Source of the DNA: Phycisphaerales bacterium
GTDB taxonomy: Bacteria; Planctomycetota; Phycisphaerae; Sedimentisphaerales; Anaerobacaceae
DNA length: 47,149 nt
Assembly (NCBI GenBank): GCA_030602885.1
Contig: JAUVYV010000028.1
Coordinates: forward strand, 1 to 47,149
Reading direction: 5' to 3'
The notes below the pieces were generated by a model, which was given only the letters and a program-made list of their open reading frames with translations, was not told the DNA's origin and did no database searches. This document shows, one piece after another, positions 1 to 28,152 of the stretch. Within the stretch, counting starts at the first letter, position 1, and every line of letters starts with the position of its first letter. The translations under genes and the position numbers were made by a program.

Positions 1-67
1 TTCCCCGCTCCCGGCCCCTCCGCGCGACTCCATTCAGCCACCCATAGGACAGATTGGCTCCAAAGGA

Positions 68-132
68 GAAACGCAAAGCGTTTCAGTGGACGAGGCAAGG
101 CACTGCGGACAAGCTTGCTTGGCAAGCAGTGC
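68..132 (+). repeat. Two-hairpin element, copy a
   Basis: Hairpin 1 is a 7-bp stem at 68-74/78-84 with an AAA loop. It is followed by the linker GTGGACGA (86-93) and then hairpin 2: outer stem 100-106/126-132 (GCACTGC/GCAGTGC), a 3/4-nt internal loop, and inner stem 110-114/117-121 with loop TT. The same architecture and linker occur in the copies at 289, 400 and 27859, but with different stem sequences. Function unknown; the layout resembles REP-type palindromes. Confidence 0.65.
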
Positions 133-288
133 ATCCCGAGAACACAAAGCCAATCTGAAGAATCTGCGGCCATCGGCGTTAATCTGTGTCTATAAATTCT
201 CTGTGCTCTCTGCGTTCTCGGCGGTAAAAAATCCGTGCAAATCCGTGGTTAGAACTTTTTTTGTTACTTCGTGCCTTCGAGACTTCGT

Positions 289-375
289 TCAGCCGGTCCC
301 AAATGGAAGCGCACGCTTCCGTGATCGAAGCAAAAGGGCCGCACAGACGCTCGCGTCGAGCAGTCCCTTAGCTGA
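289..375 (+). repeat. Two-hairpin element, copy b
   Basis: Outer closing pairs TCAGC (289-293) with GCTGA (371-375). Hairpin 1 is GGAAGC/GCTTCC (305-310/315-320, loop GCAC). The linker reads GTGATCGAAGC (321-331). Hairpin 2 has outer stem AAGGG/CCCTT (334-338/365-369), a 7/7-nt internal loop, and inner stem GACGC/GCGTC (346-350/353-357) with loop TC. Pairing is kept although the stem sequences differ from copies a, c and d. Confidence 0.6.
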
Positions 376-399
376 GAGCACAACCCCGGCCAACAATTA

Positions 400-504
400 T
401 TCAGTCGGCTCATATTATGAGCGAAGCTCATGTGGACGAAGCCGAGACGTTCCGATAGAGCTCGCTCTGAAAGGAACGTCCGTCGAGGACACCTGCTGAC
501 TGAA
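400..504 (+). repeat. Two-hairpin element, copy c
   Basis: Bounded by a near-perfect 10-bp inverted repeat, TTCAGTCGGC (400-409) and GCTGACTGAA (495-504). Hairpin 1 is ATGAGC/GCTCAT (417-422/426-431, loop GAA). The linker GTGGACGAAGCC starts at 432. Hairpin 2 has an 8-bp outer stem GACGTTCC/GGAACGTC (446-453/473-480), a 3/4-nt internal loop, and inner stem AGAGC/GCTCT (457-461/464-468) with loop TC. The same ends bound copy d at 27859-27966. Confidence 0.7.
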
Positions 505-735
505 TCTTTATGCCCCTCTGCGCCTAACAAAAAATCTGAGTTAATCTGTGTTAATCTGCGTCCAAGAAAAAAACCTCTCTGTGGTCTCTGTGATCTCTGT
601 GGCTATAATCTATCTTTAATCCGTGATAATCCGTGTCAATCCGTGGTTCGAACCTTTTTTTGTTACTTCGTGTCTTTGTCCGCCCCCCAAGGTGAGTTAG
701 CGACGAGAGACCAGCGACCAGCGACTATTTTTTAC

Positions 736-764
736 TTGACATCTAACTTCCCATGTTGTATAAT
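736..764 (+). promoter_or_regulatory. Perfect sigma-70 consensus promoter of repeat copy A
   Basis: TTGACA (736-741), 17-bp spacer, TATAAT (759-764). This is an exact match to both consensus hexamers with optimal spacing, and the identical arrangement is kept in the second copy (28124-28152). Predicted start of transcription is near 771, giving a leader of about 48 nt to the short ORF at 819. Confidence 0.75.
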
Positions 765-24155: not shown

Positions 24156-24244
24156 GGAAAAATAAACTGTTGTTGCCTCGCCAGCATGCTGGTGGATAAG
24201 CCGACTTGAGGAGCTTAGTGCGAGAGAGTTGCCGTTAAAGGATA

Positions 24245-27330: not shown

Positions 27331-27695
27331 GGCGCTAGGTCTCATTGCCATCTACTGAAGTTTACCCGCCTTTTACCCGCCTCTCGTAGCGAAGCGGAGA
27401 CCCCTGCATCTTGGAACGCAAGGTCCAGCAGGGGCCATCCCTCCCCCCTCGCGCTAGGTCTCATTGCCATCTACTGAAGTTTACCCGCCGCTTGCCCGCC
27501 TCTGGCGGGCCGACTGGCACTGACACTCTATCCCCCCTCCTGGCGCTAGGTCTCATTGCCATCTACTAACGTTTACCCGCCCGCCGGCGACACCGACTCC
27601 GCCACCGAATTCGCTGACAAAAAACCCGACCATCCCCACACGACTGTATCCCCTATGCGCTAGGTCTCATTGCCATCTACTGAAGTTTACCCGCC
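27331..27695. repeat. Four-copy direct repeat, 39-40 bp unit
   Basis: A unit starting GCGCTAGGTCTCATTGCC and ending TTTACCCGCC occurs at 27331-27370, 27451-27489, 27542-27581 and 27657-27695. Three copies are nearly identical; the third differs by CTAACG for CTGAAG. Spacing is irregular (intervals of about 120, 92 and 115). Parts of the spacers also recur (GCACTGACACTCTATCC precedes copies 1 and 3), and spacer 1 contains a CCCCTGC/GCAGGGG hairpin. No cas gene is near. Confidence 0.75.
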
Positions 27696-27858
27696 GCTTG
27701 CCCGCCTTTGGCGGGCCGGCGGAACCCCCGTGTAATCCCCCATCGCAGCCTCACCGAATACCCATCCATCTCCCTGCTCCCCATCCCTCCACATCAACCC
27801 GCAATACGCGATACGAACCCAATCCGCGTCAATCCCACTCATAAACAAACAAACGCAT

Positions 27859-27966
27859 TTCAGTCGGCTTTTTATAAAGAGCGAAGCTCTTGTGGACGAA
27901 GGCGAAGGGCCTGCGGACAAACCACGTTTGGAGCAAGGCCCGCGCCGAGTACACCTGCTGACTGAA
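27859..27966 (+). repeat. Two-hairpin element, copy d
   Basis: Same ends as copy c: TTCAGTCGGC (27859-27868) and GCTGACTGAA (27957-27966). Hairpin 1 is AAGAGC/GCTCTT (27877-27882/27886-27891, loop GAA); compared with copy c the second pair has switched from T-A to A-T. The linker GTGGACGAAGG starts at 27892. Hairpin 2 has outer stem GGGCCT/AGGCCC (27907-27912/27936-27941), a 5/5-nt internal loop and inner stem CAAAC/GTTTG (27918-27922/27926-27930). Confidence 0.7.
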
Positions 27967-28123
27967 TCTCTCTGTGCTCTCGGCGTCCTCGGCGGTAAAA
28001 AATCCGTGCAAATCCGTGTCAATCCGTGGTTCGAACCTTTTTTTGTTACTTAGTGTCTTTGCCCGCCCCCAACTTCGTTCAGCCGGTGATTAAAATCCGC
28101 GTTAATCCGTGGTTAAAATTATC

Positions 28124-28152
28124 TTGACATCTAACTTCCCATGTAGTATAAT
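28124..28152 (+). promoter_or_regulatory. Perfect sigma-70 consensus promoter of repeat copy B
   Basis: TTGACA (28124-28129), 17-bp spacer, TATAAT (28147-28152). It is identical in layout to 736-764, with one base changed in the spacer. Transcription would begin near 28159, 49 nt before the ORF. Confidence 0.75.

Follow-up and report, generated by a model that had tools for sequence, protein, structure and literature searches.

A clade-restricted family of structured dispersed repeats in Sedimentisphaerales-type planctomycetes

Bacterial intergenic DNA is shaped by short structured repeats, and to our knowledge nearly all of those described consist of one hairpin or have ends defined by their sequence. 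REPs are hairpins of 20-40 bp with a free, unpaired tag (GTAG/CGTC-type) at one end (PMC3733652). Like REP/BIME elements, the planctomycete element analyzed here is extragenic and multicopy, folds as a single strand, has drifting stems and carries a GGAC-like tetranucleotide near a stem, but it is a junction of 97-120 bp, has no Y1 gene alongside and is followed by a polar array after nearly every copy. The bcr elements of the Bacillus cereus group (bcr1-bcr18) are similarly clade-restricted, 100-400 bp long and present in tens of copies, with mobile features but without a known enzyme (PMC6542083). Mobility of bcr elements is tied to TTTAT repetitions, whereas the planctomycete element is a three-way junction that shows no duplication and no TTTAT motif in its flank consensus. 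With the prokaryotic MITEs (ERIC, Correia/NEMIS, RUP and BOX) it shares size, intergenic position and clustering with other repeats, while lacking their constant end sequences and target-site duplication. Rickettsia palindromic elements (RPEs) are structured repeats of ~100-150 bp which can sit inside open reading frames (PMC10969869), as do copies in genus g13 that lie in frame behind a start codon. However, RPEs integrate in real metabolic genes whereas the frames around our element consist mostly of other repeats and are not kept in other genera. Finally, in its several covarying stems and its conserved internal loops the element resembles the structured RNAs of Rfam, but no Rfam entry matched at gathering score or at a relaxed E-value, and our literature search found no description of such an element.

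We analyzed a stretch of 47,149 nucleotides (the window; contig JAUVYV010000028.1 of the Phycisphaerales bacterium assembly GCA_030602885.1) using two covariance models, R1 built on 14 copies from the source genome and R2 built on 89 diverse copies. Four copies noted in the window by an initial annotation were all present and could be read and matched by covariance model. The limits given there were correct for copy d, while copies a and b span more than had been assigned, copy a having been placed at 68-132. Likewise, the proposed pairing of the outer ends was confirmed, while the two hairpins that it was thought to enclose are parts of a single three-way junction of ~110 letters, with P1 as the outer closing stem, P2 as a short hairpin and P3 as a long arm. 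The copies and the parts of copy a are as follows.

50-157, forward strand: copy a (R1 89.0 bits, E 5e-17; fold z -4.96), among the model-building copies
50-59/148-157, forward strand: P1 of copy a, CAGATTGGCT/AGCCAATCTG
68-74/78-84, forward strand: P2 of copy a, GAAACGC-AAA-GCGTTTC
86-96, forward strand: conserved strand of copy a in P3, facing strand CCGAGAACAC
287-391, forward strand: copy b (R1 75.3 bits at 289-393; fold z -1.95)
399-505, forward strand: copy c (R1 88.3 bits; fold z -4.5), directly 3' of copy b
27859-27966, forward strand: copy d (R1 62.6 bits, R2 72 bits; fold z -5.8)

Copy c is built from P1 ATTCAGTCGGC/GCTGACTGAAT, P2 ATGAGC-GAA-GCTCAT and the P3 tip AGCTCGCT, and copy d from P1 TTCAGTCGGC/GCTGACTGAA and P2 AAGAGC-GAA-GCTCTT. 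What had been described as a linker, GTGGACGA(A/G)G, forms the 5' side of the P3 base and lies opposite CCGAGNACAC. This base consists of a GTG/CAC paired segment, a G opposite A, a C-G pair, a GA/GA purine pair and a GG/CC paired segment. Copy b belongs to a GTGATC/GAGCAC type, found in this genome and in a second family, in which the linker carries A.G and T-A in place of the G.A of other copies. Stem sequences were reported to be unrelated between copies, which holds only in part, as the genome contains subfamilies whose members are up to 97-100% identical. Copies 97-98% identical to copy d, for example, are found on contigs C42 and C22. Neither 24181-24215 (z +0.45) nor 27388-27434 (z -1.6), both suspected to hold degenerate relatives, was hit by R1 or R2, and the two were rejected as members.

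All four window copies folded better than dinucleotide shuffles, with z scores of about -5.0 (a), -1.95 (b), -4.5 (c) and -5.8 (d). In the 89-copy alignment, two-sided changes were observed in 34 of 37 base pairs, including every pair of P1, and double-change cells numbered 721 compared with 216+-17 after shuffling, a value reached in 0 of 500 shuffles. Pairing was found in 88.8% of alignment cells and dropped to 37-44% when the partner was slid by one column; fitting of the alignment to a model biases it in favor of pairing. When 51 copies sharing less than 80% identity were folded singly and without a model, the median z was -4.8 and 94% of them formed P1. The base-pair covariation is decisive for the fold and, lying far above shuffled controls and collapsing when slid, strongly supports the earlier proposal of selection on single-strand structure, as RNA or single-stranded DNA. 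Beyond the helices, the mismatched P3 base (G opposite A in 79/89 copies), the P3 tip (AAGCTYGCTT, exact in 52/89 copies) and a 5' GAA opposite GA are conserved. An origin of the family in random palindromes, or in an artefact of aligning intergenic DNA rich in repeats, has a close to negligible probability. It could draw on the bare motif GTGGACGARG, which is about as frequent in the genome as its reversed control (35 vs 30), so that the linker alone is uninformative, but it is refuted by every structure-based test, namely the genome and family searches, the covariation and the individual folds.

The unit defined by this fold has sharp ends. The most frequent end point of homology between copies is 0-4 nt past P1, on one side in 290 and on the other in 271 of 716 pairs, and the flanks are unrelated. 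The flank consensus is TTT upstream and AA downstream. Immediately 3', on the same strand, 89% of copies have at least two TCNGYG/TTCGTG motifs within 80 nt, compared with 39% upstream, 12% in the background and 2% on the opposite strand. Three such arrays are present in the window.

163-274, forward strand: polar array of 8 degenerate TCNGYG/TTCGTG motifs, 3' of copy a
517-673, forward strand: polar array of 10 motifs, 3' of copy c
27971-28029, forward strand: polar array of 5 motifs, 3' of copy d

Arrays located independently of the models pointed to four copies missed by R1, and R2 confirmed these four. Among arrays lacking an R1 copy, a closing stem above the 99th percentile of shuffles was seen in 4/38, not many more than in shuffles, and polar arrays thus exist also without a junction. 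Junction and array might together form a single SINE-like unit of an RNA-mediated process, with a junction-shaped RNA recognized in trans by a reverse transcriptase and the array as its repetitively copied 3' tail, an option to which we give little credence. Flush inverted ends of ~10 bp could alternatively mark P1 as the terminal inverted repeats of a MITE of a conventional DDE transposon, an explanation which the intergenic position, the size of ~110 bp and the clustering with other repeats, as in RUP/BOX/SPRITE (PMC10969869), would fit. However, flank identity was not clearly above shuffled values for duplication lengths of 3-10, so a target-site duplication was not found, and the internal arms covary as well. 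Moreover, a DDE transposase recognizes end sequence, whereas the P1 letters vary between subfamilies with compensatory change instead of forming constant ends, and we consider this explanation very improbable.

To assess copy number, the source genome was searched with two copies by BLAST, yielding ~20 more, and with R1, which gave 37 matches at E <0.001 in 3.2 Mb, 33 of them at <1e-6; R2 returned the same number (37). Altogether more than 30 further copies were found in this genome and more than 100 elsewhere. In a first sample of relatives, 15/60 genomes had R1 matches, all 15 in the element's own family. Within this family, 33/89 genomes and 17/45 genera were positive at E <1e-6, with up to 17 copies per genome outside the source genome. 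Outside the family, a class-wide sample of 397 genomes gave matches in only two genomes, both from one other family within the order, and their three copies agree with the rest in fold and in array; the large surveys were strictly filtered, so that their negatives represent lower bounds. By the DNA pattern of the core, hosts are Phycisphaerae, several of them Sedimentisphaerales, and mostly environmental MAGs. The viral contigs, plasmids and phages searched did not contain the element. Three matches in other phyla, two in what is apparently elongation-factor coding DNA (L121, L124) and one in an apparent glycosyltransferase gene (L126), were rejected as chance matches in coding DNA. We conclude that the element represents a genuine and new family of dispersed structured repeats, restricted to one clade, in Sedimentisphaerales-type planctomycetes. 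A G+C-rich variant (GGGGCAAGGCCGACG...GCCGCCAGGCAAGCCCC) with a weak model match over P3 was also seen at four loci (L173, L174, L184, L185) and is probably a sister subfamily. Separately, chimeric or truncated copies joining halves of two subfamilies (L005:955-1057, L008:534-673) suggest recombination between copies.

Copies sit in long intergenic islands alongside other repeats. Their orientation relative to flanking genes follows no rule (+/+ 20, -/+ 24, +/- 16, -/- 14), and no fixed neighbor gene emerged: orthologues near copies across genera, judged from translations to include an S1-like protein, argC-like and murC-like genes, look like ordinary conserved genes at varying distance. Copies favor the C-rich strand (55/80, p=0.001), also when gene direction is allowed for, a preference which is only suggestive as measured on the local GC skew of draft contigs. 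Sigma-70-like promoters lie near two window copies.

736-764, forward strand: sigma-70-like promoter TTGACA-17-TATAAT, in the intergenic island of copy c, outside the element
28124-28152, forward strand: the same promoter again, downstream of copy d

This near-consensus promoter, TTGACATCTAACTTCCCATGTTGTATAATACCC, is repeated beside many copies in this genome, next to which the same 35-mer recurs, and it often precedes a small frame that begins with MTTHLQDVIFCFSAL. The junction in genus g13 follows an ATG with ribosome-binding site and promoter by 19 or 82 nt, and the open frame crosses the array, 11/13 frames being in phase with a downstream repeat, an arrangement not general across copies. 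Open frames composed of repeats, 96-840 aa long and equipped with a promoter, a ribosome-binding site and an ATG, occur at L206, L207, L209-L217, L254, L255 and L258; their array lengths vary mostly in multiples of three (11/13 in frame), and they are possibly translated repeat mosaics. Other repeats share these islands. One adjoining copy d, CGCTAGGTCTCATTGCCATCTACTGAAGTTTACCCGC, is present in several tandem-like copies at 27331-27700. Another dispersed repeat, TTATGCARAACRARCCCAATTT followed by AAACGAACCCAA arrays, is found in genomes G073, G090, G102 and others, and in the window for example at 965-990, reaching 69 exact copies in a genome, compared with 0 for the reversed control. A coupling of our element to it was rejected, since the TTATGCARAACRARCCCAATTT repeat is independent, much commoner and absent in four element-rich genomes.

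Conserved non-helical features such as the mismatched P3 base, the AAGCTYGCTT tip and the 5' GAA opposite GA would also fit a functional structured RNA kept by the host for its own use, either a multicopy small RNA or a domain within transcripts of these islands. Its junction would bind a ligand or a protein, and copies would spread by recombination only. The promoter, ribosome-binding site and ATG just upstream in genus g13 and of some copies in the source genome are in line with this, and stems contain more G.T than A.C (37:23), the direction expected for an RNA of this strand, although the excess is not significant (p=0.09). On the other hand, copy number ranges from 0 to 37 between genera with none detected in more than half of the family genomes, there is no consistent orientation to flanking genes, and the element has no Rfam relative. 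We therefore regard a host RNA as possible but unlikely.

The initial annotation had also pointed to REP elements and RAYT enzymes. Six Y1_Tnp genes are indeed encoded in the source genome, and a REP/BIME-like element moved on single-stranded DNA by a RAYT/TnpA_REP-type Y1 (HUH) transposase would be compatible with structure-based selection, extragenic dispersal, a GGAC near a stem and a strand bias that could reflect replication-coupled single-strand activity. The adjacency looked for was, however, not found: of 33 Y1 loci sampled across the family, none had a copy or an array within 1.5 kb. Two of the six Y1 genes in the source genome are 2-2.5 kb from copies, and none is so placed among the Y1 positions listed for other genomes. 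Further, Y1 genes are present in 50/60 family genomes regardless of copy number, and genome G019 (74% complete) has several copies but no Y1 match. The anatomy differs as well, the element being three to five times REP length and without a free end tag, while its GGAC lies inside the paired strand of the P3 base. Because neither adjacency nor anatomy fits (PMC3733652; PMC6006769), the REP/RAYT lead is not supported and we consider it doubtful.

A shape that is kept while letters are free, sharp ends, many sites and differences between sister species instead fit a non-autonomous element read by its shape. With slightly better than even confidence, we thus interpret the family as a previously uncatalogued dispersed non-autonomous repeat whose folded strand is recognized in trans by a shape-reading enzyme. 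The mobile unit would be exactly the three-way junction, and recognition of one folded strand would allow copies to spread, a step from shape to spread that we infer. The putative enzyme may read the shape together with a few fixed letters, i.e. the mismatched P3 base (GTGGACGAAGG opposite CCGAGNACAC), the G-CTYG-C tip and the junction, leaving the stem letters free to vary as long as pairing is kept. A copy would either insert at the 5' edge of a polar TCNGYG array or bring that edge with it, and the element would act in single-stranded form, either while DNA is replicated or by way of an RNA. In favor of this interpretation we count the recent spread indicated by copy a and C96:971-1078, which are identical over their match but have different 3' flanks. 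Genomes G005 and G092 hold different copies in a common intergenic region. Different copies were seen in the L234/L236 region, and the flanks of L237 map to different places in sister genomes; turnover is therefore seen, with no precise empty site among these loci. At least one copy was vertically inherited (L213/L255), meaning that some copies stay put. We count this against the interpretation, together with the failure to find a clean empty site, a target-site duplication or copies beside the sampled Y1 loci.

In conclusion, the family has the look of mobile or RNA-like repeats that had not been described before. The R1 and R2 models make it directly searchable, and the 33 positive and 56 negative genomes provide a set in which to hunt for the enzyme by gene association. 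A junction family kept mainly by its shape, coupled to a polar array and spread over dozens of genomes of planctomycetes, would suggest an enzyme for which nucleic-acid shape is the recognition signal.
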